Below, piece after piece: positions 17,352 through 27,246 of a stretch of DNA of 64,000 nt. The first letter of the stretch is position 1. Every line of letters starts with the position of its first letter. Under the pieces are notes generated by a model. It saw only the letters and a program-made list of their open reading frames with translations, made no database searches and had not been told where the DNA came from. A program made the translations under genes and the position numbers. This stretch comes from Phaeocystidibacter luteus (lineage in GTDB: Bacteria > Bacteroidota > Bacteroidia > Flavobacteriales > Schleiferiaceae), in NCBI RefSeq assembly GCF_008933115.1, contig NZ_WBVO01000009.1:1-64000 (forward strand), given 5' to 3'.

Positions 17352-18350
17352 TTAATTGTCCGTGGAAATTTTTCGAATTCGCGCTGCGTAACTCAAGCTT
17401 TTGAGCAAATTTTGAGGCTTCTCCATATCCACAATAAGCTCCTTCCTTTCTCTCCCTCGCACTACCAAAAACCGCGAATCACGCTGCAATCTTTGATATT
17501 GATCACAGGCTACAAATCCGCGCGCAAGGATTATTGAAATCGATGCAAGCGCTCGCTTCTTACCTCTTCTCGAAGCTGGGATTTCATCAAACAAGTGCAA
17601 AAACTCACGCACTTTTTCATCCAACAACTCACGAATAAAGAAGAAGTCGGGGCGGTTAGTGACAATCGTTTGTTGGCCAGACTGAGTGTCCTTGTAAAAG
17701 TCGAAGATGTCATTCAAAAGTTGATAGACTCCTCCCAGTGCATGAAGCGCACGCTCCTCTTCAGGATAAAGCTCATGCGTGGCGATTGACCGATAAAGCA
17801 AGGTTGAGCTACCGCCTTTCTTTTCCGTAATCTTTACGAGCTCTTCAAAAGTGAGCGGTGTTGATTCATTTTGCGAAACACTTTCATTCTGAGCTACTAT
17901 GGTATCTTGATAAAACCGATGAAAGGTCTCGTTCGTGTCGAGAATCTCTTTTACTGGTCGCCACAAATAAGCGAGCGAAGGATGTAGTTCAGGGCTAGCT
18001 TCAACTTCATCAATGACTTCTCGATAGGTCTTCCTGCCATCGTCCATGGCATCGTCCATGAACGGCGTAAACGCCCCAAAATAAGCCCCATACTTCTGGT
18101 CCCTTTTCAGAACGGGAACGCCATGGAGGAGCCTAGTATGCAGATTTACGATTGAGTTCTGGGCAACATATGCCGCAATCCGCTTTCGCTCCTGGTCCGT
18201 CAATAGATTTGAGCCAACCGATTTCAAATGGGTATTCAGTTCCTCAACGGTACGTCGGTTTGCCTTTCGAGTCCCAAAAACTATTTCACGTGCAAGTCGG
18301 AAGAATTCAATTCCAACTTGAAGGTAACCGGTTTGAATAGGGCTTGACAT
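17352..18350 (-). CDS. Class I isoprenoid-synthase-like protein (paralogue B)
   Basis: The 332-residue, probably all-helical protein has two acidic motifs like those that bind the diphosphate-metal cluster in class I terpenoid synthases: DDAMDD at residues 99-104 and NDIFDFYKD at 213-221, with an ITEKKGGSS segment between. It shares this layout and the ending IVDMEKPQNLLKSL with the upstream neighbour, so the two are tandem paralogues. Substrate and product are unknown. It is the third gene of the icmF operon, starting 13 bases after the previous stop codon. A signal peptide or membrane segment is absent. Confidence 0.7.
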   Translation of the reverse strand: MSSPIQTGYLQVGIEFFRLAREIVFGTRKANRRTVEELNTHLKSVGSNLLTDQERKRIAAYVAQNSIVNLHTRLLHGVPVLKRDQKYGAYFGAFTPFMDDAMDDGRKTYREVIDEVEASPELHPSLAYLWRPVKEILDTNETFHRFYQDTIVAQNESVSQNESTPLTFEELVKITEKKGGSSTLLYRSIATHELYPEEERALHALGGVYQLLNDIFDFYKDTQSGQQTIVTNRPDFFFIRELLDEKVREFLHLFDEIPASRRGKKRALASISIILARGFVACDQYQRLQRDSRFLVVRGRERKELIVDMEKPQNLLKSLSYAARIRKISTDN

Positions 18351-18363
18351 GTCTTCCTTTCGA

Positions 18364-19335
18364 CTATCGAAGATTCTGAGTTTTGCGTGCCACCAAGATA
18401 AAGTTCTTCAACAAGTTCAGCGGCAATTCCATATCTACAATGAGTGATTTGCGATCGAACTCACCAACATCAATTCGATCCTTTTGCCCTTGAACATCCT
18501 TATAGAAATCAACGGCAATGCGGCTTCGAGTCATGATGAGCTGTGCCGACAAGTAGAATCTATTTCGTCGTTTGACGGGATAGTCCACCACTTGAAGGCG
18601 GCGAAAAAACTCTTCCTCAAGCGTTTCAAACTCCCGCTCCATAAAGTAAATGTCGCACGTTGACGTCATGAGCGTCTTAACCCCTTCGTGACTGTCTTTG
18701 TAGAGATCAACCGTATCGTTGAGAAGCTGCATGTGGCAACCCAAAGGATGAATCGCCTCAAATTCTCCTGCCACCGGTTCTTCTAAAATAATGGACCGAT
18801 ACAACGTGGTGTAATGCCCCCCTTTCTTGAAGCTGATTGCACGTATCTCATCCACGGAGAGTTCTGCATCCTCAAGTTGCTTTAAGCTCTCGTTTTGAGC
18901 CTCATGTGCAACCTTAAATTCACGAGCAAAAGTTGGACTCTTAGCAATGAGAACCTGGAGGTTTTCATAGAGGTATCGAATACAAATGCTCTCCGCTGTT
19001 GAGCCTGAAGTATCTTCAACAACGGACTCAAAACTTCGCCCCGTGCTGTCCATAGTGTCATCTGCGAGAGGAGTAAACGCCCCTAACCAAAGGGCATAGT
19101 TCTCTTCCTCCCTCGTCAGTTTTCTCCCGTGGAGCTGGTTGAACCACTCGCTGGTAACCGAAATGCCGATGATGTAATTACGAATCCTCTTCCGATGGTC
19201 GGTGGATAAGCTTTGGTCATGCTTCGCGAGCAAGTCATCTAATTCAGCCAAGATTCTGCGAGTCCGCCTTGGACCTCGAATCACAACTGCATAGAACATT
19301 CCCCAACAAGCGTGGAGCAAATCGAGGTACCGCAT
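18364..19335 (-). CDS. Class I isoprenoid-synthase-like protein (paralogue A)
   Basis: The 323-residue protein matches its downstream neighbour in layout: an acidic motif ADDTMD at residues 91-96, a SFKKGGHYTTLYRS segment, a second metal-binding-type motif NDTVDLYKD at 206-214, and IVDMELPLNLLKN near the C-terminus. The first aspartate motif is shorter than in paralogue B. It starts one base after the stop codon of icmF, so translation is probably coupled. The fold assignment rests on the two spaced Asp motifs and helical character, not on a recognised enzyme. Confidence 0.7.
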   Translation of the reverse strand: MRYLDLLHACWGMFYAVVIRGPRRTRRILAELDDLLAKHDQSLSTDHRKRIRNYIIGISVTSEWFNQLHGRKLTREEENYALWLGAFTPLADDTMDSTGRSFESVVEDTSGSTAESICIRYLYENLQVLIAKSPTFAREFKVAHEAQNESLKQLEDAELSVDEIRAISFKKGGHYTTLYRSIILEEPVAGEFEAIHPLGCHMQLLNDTVDLYKDSHEGVKTLMTSTCDIYFMEREFETLEEEFFRRLQVVDYPVKRRNRFYLSAQLIMTRSRIAVDFYKDVQGQKDRIDVGEFDRKSLIVDMELPLNLLKNFILVARKTQNLR

Positions 19336-19336
19336 G

Positions 19337-22300
19337 TTACATATTCCTGCGGTACTGACCTCCTACCTCGAACATCGATTGTGTGAGTTCACCCAGCGAG
19401 CAGAACTTAGCCGCCTTCATGATGACCTCAAAGATGTTTTCGTTGTTGACAGCTGCCGACTGAATTTCGCGAAGGGATTCTGCCGCATTCTTTTCATTCG
19501 CTTTGTGAAGGCTTTCGAGCATCTCAATCTGATATTCTTTCTCATCCTTCGTCGCACGAATAACTTCCTTTGGCAATACCGTTGGTGAACCTTTGGAGCT
19601 CAGGAAGGTGTTCACGCCAATGATTGGGTAATCACCGTTGTGCTTCAAGGTCTCATAGTGAAGTGATTCTTCCTGGATTTTCCCGCGCTGGTACATGGTT
19701 TCCATCGCACCGAGAACACCACCACGCTCTGTAATTCGGTCGAACTCTGTCAACACTGCTTCCTCCACCAAATCTGTCAACTCTTCGATGATGAACGAGC
19801 CTTGAATCGGATTTTCGTTTTTCGCCAATCCCAACTCGCGGTTGATGATGAGCTGAATAGCCATGGCACGACGAACGCTCTCCTCTGTTGGAGTGGTAAT
19901 TGCCTCGTCATATGCATTGGTATGAAGCGAGTTACAGTTATCGTAAATCGCGTACAACGCCTGTAGCGTAGTTCTAATATCGTTGAAGTCGATTTCCTGA
20001 GCGTGAAGCGATCTACCCGAAGTTTGGATGTGATACTTCAACATTTGTGCTCTAGGATCTGCACCGTACTTGTTCTTGAGCGCTTTGGCCCATACTCTTC
20101 TCGCAACGCGACCAATAACCGCGTATTCTGGATCTACTCCATTACTGAAGAAGAAGCTCAAGTTTGGTCCGAACTTGTTGATGTCCATTCCACGGCTCAA
20201 GTAGTACTCTACATACGTAAAGCCATTTGCCAAGGTAAAGGCTAACTGCGTAATAGGGTTTGCTCCAGCTTCTGCAATATGATATCCCGAAATTGAAACG
20301 GAATAGAAGTTTCTTACTCTGTTCTGAATGAAGTAACTCTGAACATCCCCCATCAATCTAAGGGCAAATTCCGTAGAGAAAATACATGTGTTCTGAGCCT
20401 GGTCTTCCTTGAGGATGTCCGCCTGAACTGTACCTCTAACCACTGAAATCGTCTCTGCCTTGATCTTGTTATAAACATCGGCCGGCAACACTTCATCACC
20501 AGTCACGCCCAAGAGCATCAAGCCGAGTCCGTCGTTACCTTCTGGAATGTCGCCGTTGTACTTCGGACGATCAATTCCTCGGTCGTCGTACTTGGCTTTC
20601 TTCACCTTTTCAACCTCAGCCTCTAGGCCATTCTCTTTGATATACTTCTCACATTGCTGATCTACAGCAGCATTGAGGAAGAAACCTAAGAGCATCGGCG
20701 CTGGACCATTGATAGTCATCGATACGGACGTCTTCGGATCGGCTAAATCAAACCCAGAGTAGAGTTTCTTGGCATCGTCTAAGCAGCAGATACTCACACC
20801 TGAGTTACCGATTTTGCCATAAATATCAGGGCGACGAGCCGGATCGTGTCCGTAAAGCGTTACTGAGTCGAAAGCCGTAGACAATCGCTTTGCTGGCATG
20901 TCCAAGCTCACGTAGTGGAAACGTTTGTTGGTACGCTCTGGACCGCCCTCTCCGGCGAACATACGCGTTGGATCTTCACCTTCTCTCTTGAACGGATAAA
21001 TACCTGAAGTATAAGGGAATTCTCCTGGGACATTCTCTTGGAGTACCCAGCGCAAGATGTCTCCCCAGCCTTTGTACTTCGGAGTTACCACCTTAGGAAT
21101 CTGCGAATGCGAAAGCGACTCTGAATGCGTCTTCACATTGATTTCCTTATCGCGAACTTTAAACGTGTACACGTCGGCCTTGTAGCGCTCGCGCTTTGTA
21201 TCCCAACCTTGAATAACTTCCCAATTGTGTGGGTCAAGATCGAGTTTAGTCTTTTCCATTTGCTCAGTTAAACCTTTGAGCAATCGGTCTTTATCTTCTA
21301 AATCTGATTCGCCAATGGTTTCCAAGCTGCGCTGAAGTCCGTAGAGCTTATCTGCAACCTCAACCTGCTTGTTTACCCAGTCGTCATAGCTTCTGTTATT
21401 CTCAGAAATCTCACTTAGATAGCGCGTTCTATTTGGCGGAATCACATACACCTTCTCGCTCATCTCCTTGCTCATGGTGAACTCAGTTTTGAGCGATTCA
21501 GCGCCTGTCTTCTCTACAATCGTATCCATAATGGTGCGGTAGAGCTGGTTCATTCCAGGATCGTTGAACTGGGAAGCGATTGTGCCGAATACCGGCATAT
21601 CATCAGCCTTTTTATCCCACAAATTGTGGTTGCGCTGATACTGTTTCTTCACATCGCGAAGGGCATCGAGTGCACCGCGCTTATCAAATTTGTTCAATGA
21701 AATAAGGTCGGCAAAATCGAGCATGTCGATTTTCTCGAGCTGTGTAGCCGCACCGTATTCTGGAGTCATCACATAGAGTGAAACATCGCTGTGGTCGAGG
21801 ATTTCGGTATCACTCTGACCAATACCAGAAGTTTCAAGAATGATGAGGTCAAACTTCGCAGCCTTCATCACCTGCACTGCTTCAGCTACGTGCTTGGAGA
21901 GCGCAAGGTTACTCTGACGAGTAGCCAAAGAGCGCATGTACACACGCTCGTGGTTGATGGCATTCATTCGGATGCGGTCACCCAACAATGCGCCACCCGT
22001 CTTGCGTTTACTCGGGTCTACAGAAATAACCGCAATGTTCTTGTCCTCGAAATCGAGCACGAAACGACGAACGAGTTCATCCACCAAAGAAGACTTACCT
22101 GCTCCACCCGTACCGGTGATGCCCAGAACGGGAATATCAGTCTTGGCTGCTCTTTCGTGAATTTCATCAAAGGCAGATTTACTTTCCTCTGGGAAGTTCT
22201 CTGCCGCGCTAATCAAGCGGGCAAGTGCGAGTGGCTCTTTGCTTTCGATACGGTCGAGCTCGTTCTCGAGCTTCTCACCAATGGCGTAATCCGACTTCTC

Positions 22301-22720
22301 AATGAGGTCGTTAATCATCCCTTGAAGGCCCATTGAGCGACCATCGTCTGGGTGATAAATTCGCGTAATTCCGTACTGATGAAGTTCGTCAATTTCTTCT
22401 GGAAGAATAGTTCCTCCACCCCCACCGAAAATGCGGATATGTCCAGCTCCCTTCTCTTGGAGCAGATCGTACATATACTTGAAGTATTCGGTATGACCAC
22501 CTTGGTAAGAAGTCATCGCAATGGCGTTGGCATCTTCCTGAATAGCGGTATTTACAACCTCTTCAACACTGCGGTCGTGACCAAGGTGAATTACCTCACA
22601 GCCAGATGACTGCATGATACGTCGCATGATATTGATAGCCGCATCGTGACCGTCGAACAACGAGGCTGCGGTGACGATACGAACTTTATGTTTTGGCTTG
22701 TAGGGCTTAATTGATTCCAT
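19337..22720 (-). CDS. icmF: Fused isobutyryl-CoA mutase (B12 domain, G-protein chaperone, mutase)
   Basis: The 1127-residue protein has, in order: a cobalamin-binding domain with DGHD at residues 23-26 and the GGGGG stretch near 100; a MeaB-type GTPase with GTGGAGKSS at 203-211; and a large mutase barrel. The barrel carries the IcmF signature [19 protein letters not shown] in place of the methylmalonyl-CoA mutase equivalent. Known IcmFs interconvert isobutyryl-CoA and n-butyryl-CoA, and some also isovaleryl/pivalyl-CoA, with adenosylcobalamin. I place the start at 22720: a TATCTTTG promoter element lies just upstream and an in-frame ATG at 22783 is upstream of that element. Two isoprenoid-synthase-like genes follow in the same operon. 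Confidence 0.95.
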
Positions 22721-22743
22721 CTGTCGGATTTTCTGTAGCTGCG

Positions 22744-22751
22744 CAAAGATA
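22744..22751 (-). promoter_or_regulatory. icmF promoter -7 element (TATCTTTG)
   Basis: The minus strand reads TATCTTTG, 23-31 bases before the icmF start codon at 22720. It would drive the three-gene operon. Confidence 0.6.
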
Positions 22752-22880
22752 GGGCTTCGGCAGGCGAGTAAAAAACGGAACAACTTCTACTCAGTTCAGA
22801 ACATCTCAGATTTTTCTAACTTACCGAAATGGAACTGTTTGAAGTCAATCAGAATCCAACAACCCTAACTCATCATCACT

Positions 22881-23279
22881 ATGGAAATCAACTGGATAGC
22901 GGTTATTGTCGCCGCACTTTCAACCTTCGTTCTGGGATTCATTTGGTATAACCCCAAGGTATTTGGAACCATGTGGCAGAAGGCTGCGGGCTTGTCCGAC
23001 GAGCAAATGAAGGATATGTCGGGAATGGGCAAAATCTTCGGTGTGAGCTTCATTCTAGCACTAGCCATGGCTATTATGACAACCTATTTCGTTCATGGTA
23101 CAGACGATATCGCGGTAGCGGCTCGCATGGGCTTGTATCTCGGACTGGGAATTATTCTCCCCGCAATGGGAACCACCGCGATGTACGAGCGACGAGGCTT
23201 TGCCTACATCTTCGTAAATGGCGCCTATTGGATAATCGGCATTATTATTATCTCAATGATTCTGGCAGCTTTTAACTAA
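22881..23279 (+). CDS. DUF1761 family membrane protein
   Basis: The 132-residue protein has four hydrophobic segments: residues 5-22, 52-70, 80-98 and 108-130. An early FIWYNPKVFGTMWQK motif is typical of DUF1761. The function of the family is unknown. Its stop codon shares four bases (CTAA) with the convergent gene's stop. Confidence 0.88.
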   Translation: MEINWIAVIVAALSTFVLGFIWYNPKVFGTMWQKAAGLSDEQMKDMSGMGKIFGVSFILALAMAIMTTYFVHGTDDIAVAARMGLYLGLGIILPAMGTTAMYERRGFAYIFVNGAYWIIGIIIISMILAAFN

Positions 23280-23710
23280 GGCTGAACAACAGTAATGGGG
23301 CCGGCAGTGAGGGTATTACTCTTGTTGCCGGCTCTGTCTTTTACCCAAATGGAATAGGTCACTTCCTCTTGCGTGGATCCATTGGTGATCACCGTGTTGG
23401 GGAGAATCAAAATTAGCTTGCCCTTAATAGGCACATCGCTCCCCGATGGTGCGAGTTCCGATATTCTGTACAGATACGTGAGGTCAATCCGCTCATCTCG
23501 CAAAAAGAAGTTCTTCGCATCTGGTGCATTTTCTCCCAAGTCTCCGTCGCCATCTTCGTAGGAGATTTCTATGTAGATGCTGTCTTGCAATTCAACAACC
23601 GTACTCGGACCAATCTTCACTAAATCAATCGTTGGCGATTCTTCGAACGCAACATCCTCTCCGCAGCCCCAAACAACCGCTAGTATCAGTATGGACAACA
23701 GTTTTCTCAT
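23276..23710 (-). CDS. Small lipoprotein with a beta-sandwich-like domain
   Basis: The 144-residue product has a lipoprotein signal ending VVWGC (Cys16) and a single domain with the acidic YEDGDGDLGE motif common in exported Bacteroidota proteins, closing with YSIWVKDRAGNKSNTL as in immunoglobulin-like domains. It is the last of five minus-strand genes; its start overlaps the stop of the cytochrome-like gene by four bases. A function cannot be named. Confidence 0.78.
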   Translation of the reverse strand: MRKLLSILILAVVWGCGEDVAFEESPTIDLVKIGPSTVVELQDSIYIEISYEDGDGDLGENAPDAKNFFLRDERIDLTYLYRISELAPSGSDVPIKGKLILILPNTVITNGSTQEEVTYSIWVKDRAGNKSNTLTAGPITVVQP

Positions 23711-24594
23711 TGCACAACAAAGGATGAAATGATTCTGAAATAGAACGGCGATTGATCATTTGGAAATTCCACCACCGGATTCTCCGGATCCTTCACGTAG
23801 TACCTAAACCACACGGTATCACCTGGAGTAAATTCATTGGTATTGAAGGTCAAGCCATGCGCAATCCCCGCGAAGGGCTGAGCCTGCTTCACGATAGCAT
23901 TCGAAAAGTCATATTCATCACCGGAAAACTTCCCTTCGCGCACAAGTAGATTTTGGATCGAAGTAGAGTCATCTTCCACCAACACATACATGGTAACAGC
24001 TTCATTGTTGGGCAGAATCAAAGGTGAAATCTGTCCGTTCATGCGGGCAGTATCAATTCGTTGACTTTGAGAATTGAATAAGGCAAAACCCGTGACCGTA
24101 GGAGGCTGGTTCGGAAAAACTGCGACATTGCCATCCGCATCCTTCGCCCCATCATTAATCCAATCACGCACCCAACTCAACTCTGTTTCCGTAAGCGGCT
24201 GCGCATAAAGAGGCATTCGGCCTATAACATCATCCGTCGTTATCAAACGCTCATATAACCAAGAAGCACCATGGTCATTCGGCACAACACGATACGTGTA
24301 CGCTTCATCATTTGTATTCTTGATTACAGGATGATACACCAGCGTCTGATAGGTCGATTCAACCGTTCGAAAATCGGGTTCAAAAGAACCGTCATGACAA
24401 GTAGGGTTGGCACATTTAACCGCGAAGATGTTCTTATGTAATCCTTGAATGGTTCGAGGATCCGGCTCTCCTGGAGGCGTTTCTGTGTCATCGTTGTTCG
24501 AGAAAGGATTCTCGGTAGGGTCCTCAACAGTCGTACACATCACAAAAGTGAAGAGCGCTCCAAAAATGACGGTATATCGCATCAACTTCATCAT
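23707..24594 (-). CDS. Lipoprotein with a cytochrome c-like domain (CX4CH haem motif)
   Basis: This 295-residue protein starts with a lipoprotein signal (Cys20) and a Pro/Glu-rich linker. A cytochrome-like domain follows with CANPTCH at residues 61-67 (two cysteines separated by four residues rather than two) and a GRMPLYA segment suited to the distal Met ligand. The layout recalls the cytochrome domains attached to planctomycete-type DUF1549/DUF1553 proteins. The C-terminal half is a beta-rich domain. Its start overlaps the DUF1501 stop by four bases, so the two should be made together and meet outside the cytoplasm. Confidence 0.78.
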   Translation of the reverse strand: MMKLMRYTVIFGALFTFVMCTTVEDPTENPFSNNDDTETPPGEPDPRTIQGLHKNIFAVKCANPTCHDGSFEPDFRTVESTYQTLVYHPVIKNTNDEAYTYRVVPNDHGASWLYERLITTDDVIGRMPLYAQPLTETELSWVRDWINDGAKDADGNVAVFPNQPPTVTGFALFNSQSQRIDTARMNGQISPLILPNNEAVTMYVLVEDDSTSIQNLLVREGKFSGDEYDFSNAIVKQAQPFAGIAHGLTFNTNEFTPGDTVWFRYYVKDPENPVVEFPNDQSPFYFRIISSFVVQ

Positions 24595-25892
24595 ACAAAT
24601 GCCTCTTGAAGCACACGCCCCGGAAGTATTCCATTGGTTTCTGGAAGGAACCCTAGTGCGTCTGCGATAGTTGGAACGATATCAATGCTCTGTCCTGTTA
24701 CTTGATTGACCACGTTGCCGGTATTCACAACACCTGATGGGCCGAGCATTAAGCAGAAGATTTCCCTGCTCACGGCATCATCCGTGGTATGGTCGAGTGC
24801 CGGTCTGCCGTTTGCATCGAGAATGGTGTTCGGATTGGCGTTTCGTCCAATTTCTGGTGCGACGATAAGTAGTGTATCATTCGCCAATCCCGGCGTATTC
24901 TGTATGGTATCCCATAGGTGGGCAACGGCCCAGTCGGCTCTGCGTAGGTTGTTGCAGTATTCCGTAAAGTTGGTGTGGGCTACATCCACTCCGAACATGT
25001 TCACAACGAGGAGCTCTGGCTTGAACTCTTCCAACACTTGTTCGGCGTAGAAGATATTTCGCATGTCGCCATTCATTCCACTCGGAATGTTCCATGGATT
25101 GTTGTGCTGGCCACCTTGGGCCTCTTGAACCATGCGATTTATGAATGCTTGAATTTGATCTCTCCCCTCTTTCGAATTCTCCAAACCTGCTGCTGCGCTG
25201 AATGGAACGTCAAACTGCGCATTGGTAAAGTGACGAAGTCGGTCGAGCTCCTCGGCCACATCTGGGTCAATGGCATAGCTGTTCCCCAATGCGTTCAAGC
25301 CACTGTTCGAGAAGAGCTGGTTGGGCGATATTTGATTCGCGCCGTATTGTGGACCATAACTCGGGTGTGAGCTGTAGTTCAACAATGGGTACAGGTTGTT
25401 GGTGTGCGACACCCACCACGCATTCGTTGCTGAGGCTGCTGGGTTGCTGTGTTTTCTGTAAAGCTCAAATACCGTTGGCCATTCGGGCGCAGCTCTTAGA
25501 TTGAGTGCGGTATTTGTATGCTGACCTGTAATTGCCGTGGTGTGACCGTTGTAATGACCGGTTGGTCCATCTGAAAATCTGAACTCACGGAACAACGTAC
25601 CCATGGTTTGCATGGGAGCTGATAACGGTGAACTTGGTAGAGCCGACATGCTGCTGGCGATGTCGTTCGTAATGGCCTCATTTCCTGAAAGGATGTTTGG
25701 CATCAGGTTACCTTCTGCCTTTTGAACACTCTCCCAGTTTCGGACGCCACCTGCGAACAAACAGAATACCACGTGGTTCACTTTTCTGGCACCTGTTGCT
25801 GCAAACAGTCTACCCGAGGGTAGAATGTATGGAGCGGCCAACATTCCAACGCTACCGAGTGCAGTCTTCTTTAAAAAGTTCCTTCTTTCCAT
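24591..25892 (-). CDS. Tat-exported DUF1501 family protein
   Basis: The 433-residue protein begins MERRNFLKKTALGSVGMLAAPYIL, a twin-arginine signal of the type that exports folded proteins. The rest has the layout of DUF1501, a distant branch of the alkaline phosphatase/sulfatase superfamily: FCLFAGGVRNW near the start, TGQHTN, APEIGRNANPN and ALDHTTDD towards the C-terminus, which correspond to the conserved EFGR and DH motifs. The Asp that usually follows the first GG motif is not present. It lies inside a five-gene set of exported proteins. The substrate is unknown. Confidence 0.88.
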   Translation of the reverse strand: MERRNFLKKTALGSVGMLAAPYILPSGRLFAATGARKVNHVVFCLFAGGVRNWESVQKAEGNLMPNILSGNEAITNDIASSMSALPSSPLSAPMQTMGTLFREFRFSDGPTGHYNGHTTAITGQHTNTALNLRAAPEWPTVFELYRKHSNPAASATNAWWVSHTNNLYPLLNYSSHPSYGPQYGANQISPNQLFSNSGLNALGNSYAIDPDVAEELDRLRHFTNAQFDVPFSAAAGLENSKEGRDQIQAFINRMVQEAQGGQHNNPWNIPSGMNGDMRNIFYAEQVLEEFKPELLVVNMFGVDVAHTNFTEYCNNLRRADWAVAHLWDTIQNTPGLANDTLLIVAPEIGRNANPNTILDANGRPALDHTTDDAVSREIFCLMLGPSGVVNTGNVVNQVTGQSIDIVPTIADALGFLPETNGILPGRVLQEAFV

Positions 25893-25894
25893 GC

Positions 25895-26377
25895 TCAGTA
25901 GTATTTGTATTCATCGGCTGTAAGCAGAACAAAGGCCAGGTGCAAAACACCTAAATCCGGGTTGTCGCTCAACCAATTTTGATAATACCATACCTCCATC
26001 TCGCCCGGTGTGCGCGAATAGTATCTTTCATACAGGGACGTTATCACGCCAGCCGGATCCGTCTGCAACTCGGTGTCGGTAGGCAATTGCGCCGAAGCGT
26101 CGTTTAAAAAACGCCATGTCAAGCGATCGATAATCACCTGCTTATCTCCAAATGAATTGTAGGTATCGGCGAGGTCTTGAAGTTCAGACTGTGAAATTGC
26201 GCGTCCGAACACATCGCTGAACATGATGCTCAAAAGCTGCAAATCTGACTTCAATTGCGATTTATCCGCGCCTCCTGAAGTGACCCCTACTGGATTTACC
26301 TCATATTGATTCACCTCAACTTCCTTGCAGGAAATCAGGACGAAAATTGACAGTAGGGAAACGACTAGCACTCTCAT
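25895..26377 (-). CDS. Lipoprotein with two LGRxP-type motifs
   Basis: This 160-residue protein has a lipoprotein signal ending LISC (Cys17). It has two segments of the type GR-(x)-E, VFGRAISQSELQDL and YYSRTPGEMEVWYY, and ends TADEYKYY. The neighbour at 26374 ends TDEYFFL and has the same kind of motif. The two therefore look like pieces related to DUF1549/DUF1553 or DUF1800 proteins, which commonly sit beside DUF1501 genes. It ends two bases before the DUF1501 start. Confidence 0.7.
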   Translation of the reverse strand: MRVLVVSLLSIFVLISCKEVEVNQYEVNPVGVTSGGADKSQLKSDLQLLSIMFSDVFGRAISQSELQDLADTYNSFGDKQVIIDRLTWRFLNDASAQLPTDTELQTDPAGVITSLYERYYSRTPGEMEVWYYQNWLSDNPDLGVLHLAFVLLTADEYKYY

Positions 26378-27246
26378 AGGAAGAAGTATTCATCGGTTGA
26401 CAATATGCGCATTTGCATCTCCTCAAAGTCGTAATCAGCACTGAACCTAGCTCGCTCTGTGGTAACTTCGTATGACGTCGGTTCACGGAACAAATAATTC
26501 AGGTAGACGTATCTAATTTGACCTTCCACGTACCCGTCTGAGTTGTAAAATATCTCGAGGAAATCTTGCTTGCCTTCGCCTCCTTGAAGAAAGAGTACAT
26601 CGCGAAATCCCTCTACCATTCTTTTCGAAGATTCTAGCTCAAATTGAGTGGGATAGCGGTACAGGAAATGATCGAAAACAGAAACTACAAAGTTCTCTGC
26701 GCCCATATTAATGTCGTCGTAAATGGCATTATCAACCGCGTAGCGATGCGCATCACGAGTGGAGTACACTCCTGCAAATAGACTGTCTGGCACGTATTGG
26801 ATTCGCTGGAGTCGATCTATTTCAGCTTGATAAATGAACTGTTGCTCTGGAGGGGCTCCCTGCATTAAGATTTGAAGAGAAAATATAAGGTTGCTTATCT
26901 CTGTGGTGTCTACACTCTCGAGGAGCTCGGATCGGATATCGTCCCAACGCTTGACGGCTACAGAGCGGTTAGACATGATACTTGAAAGCCATGTGAACCT
27001 CTGCGCGCTATCCCGAGGGTTTTCATCGATGATGGTTCGTGCCGCGCTGTGCTCCGCTGTATCAGGCTTTCTACCTAGTAGGGTAATGTATACGCGCTCA
27101 ATGTATCGATCGCGTTGTTGAAACGAAACGGTAGGATCTTCGGGAGGATTATTTCCACCGACTACATTCACAACCTCCTGCTCACAAGAGAGCAAGACGA
27201 GCGACGTCAAGGCCGTAAAAAACAATACTTTAAAACTCCTCTTCAT
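26374..27246 (-). CDS. Lipoprotein with DUF1549-like N-terminus
   Basis: The 290-residue protein carries a lipoprotein signal ending LLSC (Cys21). It has YIERVYITLLGRKPDTAEH, close to the opening of DUF1549 (PSCyt2) domains, and later FLYRYPTQFELES and YLFREPTSYEVTT, repeats of the same hydrophobic-xR-x-P-x-E pattern. It ends STDEYFFL. It is the first gene of the five-gene exported cassette and overlaps the next start by four bases. A promoter-like TACCTTTC lies about 20 bases upstream. Enzyme activity is not known. Confidence 0.75.
   Translation of the reverse strand: MKRSFKVLFFTALTSLVLLSCEQEVVNVVGGNNPPEDPTVSFQQRDRYIERVYITLLGRKPDTAEHSAARTIIDENPRDSAQRFTWLSSIMSNRSVAVKRWDDIRSELLESVDTTEISNLIFSLQILMQGAPPEQQFIYQAEIDRLQRIQYVPDSLFAGVYSTRDAHRYAVDNAIYDDINMGAENFVVSVFDHFLYRYPTQFELESSKRMVEGFRDVLFLQGGEGKQDFLEIFYNSDGYVEGQIRYVYLNYLFREPTSYEVTTERARFSADYDFEEMQMRILSTDEYFFL

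Follow-up and report, generated by a model that had tools for sequence, protein, structure and literature searches.

Does a run of five short, closely packed genes for exported proteins in Phaeocystidibacter luteus constitute a fixed unit, and if so, to what kind of system does it belong? The genes lie within a 64,000-nucleotide stretch of contig NZ_WBVO01000009.1 (positions 1 to 64,000; hereafter the window) and encode two lipoproteins (LipA and LipB), a central protein with a twin-arginine translocation (Tat) signal, a haem lipoprotein, and a lipoprotein of Ig-like appearance. The order LipA–LipB–central–cytochrome–Ig, on a single strand, is kept in 34 other loci across many genera. We regard the cassette as a variant of the functionally uncharacterised PSCyt/PSD/DUF1501 kind. 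We consider it probable, with some reserve, that the cassette is a vertically co-inherited, predicted operon encoding one extracytoplasmic module of the PSCyt1-PSCyt2-PSD1/DUF1501-like type, divided among lipoproteins. Its components in the window are as follows.

23276..27246, minus strand: whole five-gene cassette, arranged alike and on one strand at 34 other loci
26374..27246, minus strand: LipA, lipoprotein of 290 amino acids with two DUF4214/phycobilisome-linker-like regions (LLGRKP ... YRYPT ... FREPT)
25895..26377, minus strand: LipB, lipoprotein of 160 amino acids with one DUF4214-like domain
24591..25892, minus strand: central protein of 433 amino acids with a Tat signal and a predicted alkaline-phosphatase-superfamily fold
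23707..24594, minus strand: haem lipoprotein of 295 amino acids with an N-terminal monohaem cytochrome c-like domain
23276..23710, minus strand: Ig-like lipoprotein of 144 amino acids

Co-inheritance of the five genes

From LipA to the Ig-like gene, the junctions measure −4, +2, −4, and −4 nt. The initial annotation of this DNA had described exactly these five open reading frames (ORFs), with three 4-bp overlaps and one 2-bp gap across 23276–27246; the narrower span that it gave, 24591–27246, takes in the first three genes only, while its text covered all five. Lipoboxes are present in the four ORFs flanking the central one, which itself carries an RRxFLK Tat motif. No Bacteroidota promoter consensus was found near the cassette, and the window as a whole contains one match at chance level.

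Homologs of the central protein were sought in 248 genomes of the order and in a genome collection, with gene calling around the matches; the family sets behind the counts comprise 27–35 members. Because a first iterative hidden Markov model (HMM) drifted to general alkaline phosphatase (AlkP)-superfamily proteins, some of the size of the phosphoglycerate mutase iPGM (505 amino acids) and others of 300–360 amino acids, cassette membership was restricted to central-protein HMM matches below 1e-100. Exceptions to the common gene order comprise contig ends, two failures of ORF calling (LipB in L053; LipA in L061, where a profile search recovered the gene), and one decayed copy (L063). This last locus (G026:C25) appears to be a decaying cassette: in-frame stops interrupt both LipA and the central gene, and its cytochrome reads TRANSGCHD, the first haem cysteine being gone; an assembly error is possible. 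The cassette order also occurs in a genome of another family within the class (G288, L171). Flanking genes vary from genus to genus, which identifies the five genes themselves as the conserved unit, and the conservation of both order and strand in the 34 other loci shows that the arrangement is not due to chance. The proposal of a fixed five-gene exported cassette is thereby upheld, and relatives without the same neighbours, which had been named as the finding that would speak against it, did not turn up in the conservation searches.

All 32 genomes of the order sample that carry the central gene also carry LipA and the cytochrome, with strong profile scores. LipA was detected in only two additional genomes, once as a match at a contig end (G060) and once as partial LipA and cytochrome matches on separate contigs (G099); profile searches revealed no strong stray copies of LipA or the cytochrome in the order sample. 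A 396-genome sample of the phylum yielded one further cassette only, and the matches from the genome collection are Bacteroidia metagenome-assembled genomes, one of them labelled Cyclobacteriaceae. Cassettes thus have a patchy distribution, largely limited to the order and its neighbours. Between the five families, distance matrices show correlations of r 0.88–0.96.

A second, diverged cassette type (type II) exists within the small-genome family f11, in which two genomes (G011 and G053) each carry both paralogous types. Identity between the types inside G011 is 27–40% for all five genes, as against 68–81% for the same type compared between G011 and G053; since all five genes diverge together by type, the block was duplicated or transferred as a unit. 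In families f8 and f11, type-I cassettes (L043, L044, L045, L046) are flanked by an AlkP-superfamily gene of phosphoglycerate mutase size (505 amino acids), as well as by genes for an M20-like peptidase and a DUF255 thioredoxin-fold protein.

An altered active site in the central protein

An AlphaFold2 model of the central protein (predicted local distance difference test score, pLDDT, 82.7) returned 449 PDB matches at E ≤ 0.001 in Foldseek, with sulfatases and alkaline phosphatases on top (E 1.6e-12); on this model, the protein is predicted to adopt an alkaline-phosphatase-superfamily fold. The initial annotation had named it a DUF1501 protein, a label that does not survive profile comparison. 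The window protein has no Pfam match, PF07394 finds nothing in its own genome, and the Pfam matches among 27 family members are to Phosphodiest (13), Sulfatase (10), and DUF1501 (2; best 2.2e-4). Direct membership in DUF1501 (PF07394) was rejected, as the curated cut-off of 27 bits is not reached. Profile–profile alignment with hhalign gives the central protein a moderate probability of relationship to DUF1501 proteins paired with PSD1 (71% over 365 columns; reversed control 0.4%) and to those paired with DUF1800 (79%, over only 110 columns; reversed control 0.1%).

The likeness to DUF1501 resides in the active site. Across the superfamily, the nucleophile place is occupied by Cys in sulfatases and by Thr or Ser elsewhere. 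Located by counting ten residues back from the Gly of a conserved T-G, this position is His113 in all 27 central proteins. The hhalign alignment pairs the DUF1501 His with H117 instead, but H113 is assigned here because the ten-residue spacing is fixed and H113, not H117, is invariant. Neither a catalytic Thr/Ser/Cys nucleophile nor the full set of two-metal ligands is present in the 27-sequence alignment, and the Cys/Ser of the sulfatase (PF00884) CxPSR motif is absent, an invariant GHYxG standing in its stead. Canonical relatives carry the first metal Asp in DGxR and the second pair in DHGR (16/16); the equivalents are AGGVR and PE(H/I/Q/C)GRN in the central family, and SGG/NGG and EFGR in DUF1501. 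The first metal Asp is replaced by the G48/A47 region (GG48-49) and the second by E347, whose next residue varies (I/H/Q/C). D303, H306, D367, and H368 are invariant in the family, and D303, H306, and H368 occupy the ligand positions of metal site 1.

The DUF1501 active-site signature—GG at the end of strand 1, His at the nucleophile place, DxH, E-F-G-R, and D-H—is found in 27/27 columns, with variations in the central family (DxxH; E-x-G-R-N). Among DUF1501 proteins with EFGR (n = 28), 26 have His at the nucleophile place, 26 have DxH, and 27 have DH. The DUF1501 proteins of loci L121–L150, paired with PSD1 or DUF1800, show a seemingly invariant His at the nucleophile place, with GG and E-F-G-R in place of metal Asp residues. 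Judged by its residues, the central protein appears to be DUF1501-like in its active site, yet it lies outside PF07394.

These substitutions bear directly on whether the cassette could be a surface phosphodiesterase or sulfatase system, in which the central protein would actively hydrolyse sulfated or phosphorylated glycans, the lipoproteins would bind them, and the role of the haem domain would be structural only. The central protein does share fold and overall profile with the AlkP superfamily (type I phosphodiesterases, sulfatases): its closest profiles are Phosphodiest/Sulfatase and those of ordinary AlkP-like proteins (~300 amino acids; hhalign 99.9%, E 2.6e-31), the top PDB folds are sulfatases, and the ligands of metal site 1 are invariant. 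However, His is invariant at the nucleophile place, where sulfatases require Cys or Ser; Gly or Ala stands in for the first Asp of metal site 2 and Glu, next to a variable residue, for the second, so that D-H-G has become E-x-G-R. Nor do glycan-binding or SusCD transport genes adjoin the cassette in the loci examined, and we regard a hydrolase of this kind as unlikely.

The lipoproteins and related modules

LipA and LipB are DUF4214/phycobilisome (PBS)-linker-like proteins; the LGRxP-type repeats remarked on from the sequence are real and correspond to DUF4214/PBS-linker motifs. DUF4214 matches at E ≤ 1 in 20/25 members of each family (best 1.4e-7 for LipA and 1.7e-5 for LipB), and LipA members also match PBS_linker (7 of the 25) and PSD1 (7; best 0.001). 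At least one LipA member exceeds a DUF4214/PBS curated cut-off among the matches listed; the window copies fall below. PBS-linker chains are the best PDB profile matches of LipA (2e-4), and they are also the top specific Foldseek matches of its AlphaFold2 model (pLDDT 91.5; probability ≤ 0.98, E ~1). The motif and predicted fold are thus common to LipA/LipB and the DUF4214/phycobilisome linkers (PF13946, PF00427), from which the cassette proteins differ in being lipoproteins outside photosynthesis, most of them below curated cut-offs. Raw hhalign probabilities between the lipoproteins (70–90%) reflected shared signal peptides and were discarded; after trimming, only the relationship between LipB and the C-terminal half of LipA remained (87%, E 4e-6, 104 columns).

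The haem lipoprotein carries the motif C61-X4-C66-H67 plus M127-P128, and these five residues are invariant in a 27-row alignment. CX4CH is conserved in 34/35 family members, the sole exception being the decayed L063 copy, and no CXnCH motif occurs in the other four cassette families. Its haem domain is related to PSCyt1: the mature parts align with an hhalign probability of 95% (E 4.7e-8), against 0.1% for the reversed control. Pfam PSCyt1 itself matches only 1/27 members, at 0.07. The C-terminal part is probably rich in beta motifs, by prediction. Cytochrome c assembly proteins (PF01578) are present in the P. luteus genome; ResB (PF05140) was not found there. Among solved structures, the cytochrome profile comes closest to the FoxE iron oxidase (E 0.0098, in the axial-Met region only), a kinship judged to be at motif level. 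It raises the idea of a module for handling redox metals, such as a surface relay oxidising Fe(II) or another metal via the cytochrome. The FoxE match is marginal and confined to an 'RMP...WI..GA' motif common to many cytochromes, the protein has one haem only, and porin-cytochrome genes are not adjacent; such a role is very improbable.

The fifth protein, small and putatively beta-rich, is provisionally labelled Ig-like from the appearance of its sequence. It has no Pfam family above cut-off, and G56, G59, D72, R74, D125, S131, and N132 are invariant in the family alignment.

The closest known system is the PSCyt1-PSCyt2(DUF1549)-PSD1(DUF1553) module with an adjacent DUF1501 gene, a planctomycete/PVC (Planctomycetes-Verrucomicrobia-Chlamydiae) type that is also found in Bacteroidota (L152, L153, the two loci on which its domain order was checked). 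It shares with the cassette a PSCyt1-related haem domain, a weak and tentative PSCyt2 resemblance in LipA, PSD1 matches in few LipA members, a Tat-type N-terminus, and the active-site substitutions of the AlkP-fold protein. The earlier suggestion that a large partner, usually a DUF1549/DUF1553 or DUF1800 protein, has been split into small lipoproteins is supported: the haem lipoprotein pairs with PSCyt1, and LipA weakly with the start of mature PSCyt2/DUF1549 (hhalign 60%, E 8.9e-5, 56 columns; reversed control 0.6%), but LipB shows no relationship to DUF1549/1553 (4%). A DUF1800-type partner was considered and rejected, with no signal for LipB and 16% only for LipA (reversed control 0.1%). 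The PVC-type module is a single protein of ~1080 amino acids with an inserted Laminin_G domain, whereas the cassette has four separate small lipoproteins; in the cassette, moreover, the cytochrome is encoded downstream of the AlkP-fold protein and has CX4CH rather than CX2CH, the central protein falls under the Pfam DUF1501 thresholds, and the lipoproteins bear surface-export-like signals. The DUF1800-DUF1501 pairs of proteobacteria and Flavobacteriaceae follow the same two-part logic, with a Tat-exported AlkP-fold protein and a common signature (SEFGRR, GFDTH, H-F-R), but lack haem protein and lipoproteins, and the LipA–DUF1800 similarity is only suggestive. In all three arrangements, the helical partner gene or genes lie directly upstream of the AlkP-fold gene. 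PSCyt/PSD/DUF1501 genes number in the dozens in some planctomycetes, Rhodopirellula baltica having 41 for DUF1549 and as many for DUF1553 (PMC2754498). Published accounts give the function of their products as unknown (PMC5615132, PMC4452313), with carbohydrate or redox roles suggested in the literature. The literature searched contained no description of this five-gene cassette.

Export and a possible surface function

Tat export of the central protein, as initially proposed, is supported by the RRxFLK motif, of which R3, R4, and F6 are invariant in the 27 sequences; the Tat profile TIGR01409 scores 16.6 bits, just under its cut-off of 16.7, and a TatC gene is present in the P. luteus genome. 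The surface lipoprotein export signal (LES) of Capnocytophaga is C-X-K-(D/E)2-X (PMC5080379). Lys at +3 after the lipid-anchored Cys is seen in 58–86% of members of the cassette lipoprotein families, compared with 17% of the remaining lipoproteins encoded at these loci; the C-x-K-(D/E)2 form occurs in 31/121 and 0/40, respectively, the background set being small and regex-based. An LES-like signal, either of the C-x-K-(D/E)2 form or acidic at +2 to +6, is found family-wide. From these signals, a surface location may be predicted for the cassette lipoproteins in P. luteus.

Neighbours encoding substrates of the type IX secretion system (T9SS) connect type-II cassettes, at least, with the cell surface. 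Within a few bases downstream of these cassettes lies a gene for a type-B T9SS protein of ~1350 amino acids with CUB, MAM, and PKD domains, and upstream there is often one for a type-A T9SS protein that contains a Kazal-like domain. The type-B proteins at L048:8936-13009, L171:9882-13358, and L052:1535-5017 (1150–1360 amino acids) all contain PKD, and most contain CUB/MAM. Such neighbours invite the interpretation of a structural or adhesive surface assembly, in which the AlkP-fold protein would be a dead-enzyme building block alongside the linker-like lipoproteins and the CUB/MAM/PKD protein. The degenerate active site fits this, as does the PBS-linker-like character of LipA and LipB, a fold that serves assembly in phycobilisomes. 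Yet the window-type cassette has no T9SS partner, and if the role were purely structural, one would not expect six polar active-site residues and the haem motif with its Met to stay invariant, or almost so, across 35 loci. We think this interpretation unlikely.

In the window itself, a gene for a HAD-type hydrolase, on the minus strand like the cassette, starts 62 bp upstream of LipA. On the other side, a DUF1761 membrane protein gene (22881-23279, plus strand; E 4.5e-28) converges on the cassette and ends 4 nt inside its last gene, in a stop-codon overlap. Farther along, by eye only, a 1148-amino-acid ORF (19337-22783) resembles a fused, IcmF-like acyl-CoA mutase with B12-binding, GTPase chaperone, and mutase parts, and two adjacent look-alike ORFs of 332 and 323 amino acids (17352-19335) resemble tandem paralogues.

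The mechanism we prefer, which goes beyond architecture, is that of a surface-anchored module combining haem and a modified metal centre on an extracellular polymer. The four lipoproteins would go to the outer membrane, most family members bearing a surface-typical export signal, and the central AlkP-superfamily protein would be exported folded, via Tat. The linker-like helical domains of LipA and LipB, together with the Ig-like protein, could serve as a scaffold and as a grip on substrate or surface. The central protein would hold a metal centre of modified form, with the invariant residues H113, D303, H306, E347, D367, and H368, to bind or act upon an anionic polymer or conjugate outside the cell, and the haem lipoprotein alongside it would move single electrons. 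A physical complex of the five proteins, their metal content, their substrate, and any redox chemistry are accordingly put forward here as predictions.

Several observations weigh against the reading of the cassette as a co-inherited, split PSCyt/PSD/DUF1501-like module at the surface. Correlated distances among the five families are also expected from shared species history. The likeness of LipA to DUF1549 is weak, LipB has none to DUF1549/1553, and the predicted haem site is spaced CX4CH where PSCyt1-type proteins have CX2CH. The window lipoproteins have acidic residues between +2 and +6 but no Lys at +3 (CEQEV, CKEVE, CTTVE, CGEDV), and a Tat substrate is expected to be periplasmic and may not meet surface lipoproteins unless moved on.

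A bolder and improbable extension would make DUF1501 and the cassette family one branch of the AlkP fold, in which the nucleophile has become an invariant His and one metal site has been rebuilt (GG, Glu); with its obligate haem c partner, this branch would form an extracellular metal-haem enzyme, the cassette being its simplest, separable form. We know of no metal-haem enzyme chemistry in the alkaline phosphatase superfamily. With its small, separate proteins, the split, single-copy version in Flavobacteriales opens the way to reconstitution and to the knockout of single genes, and the common His/Glu active-site signature gives a point-mutant route to whether DUF1501 proteins are enzymes.

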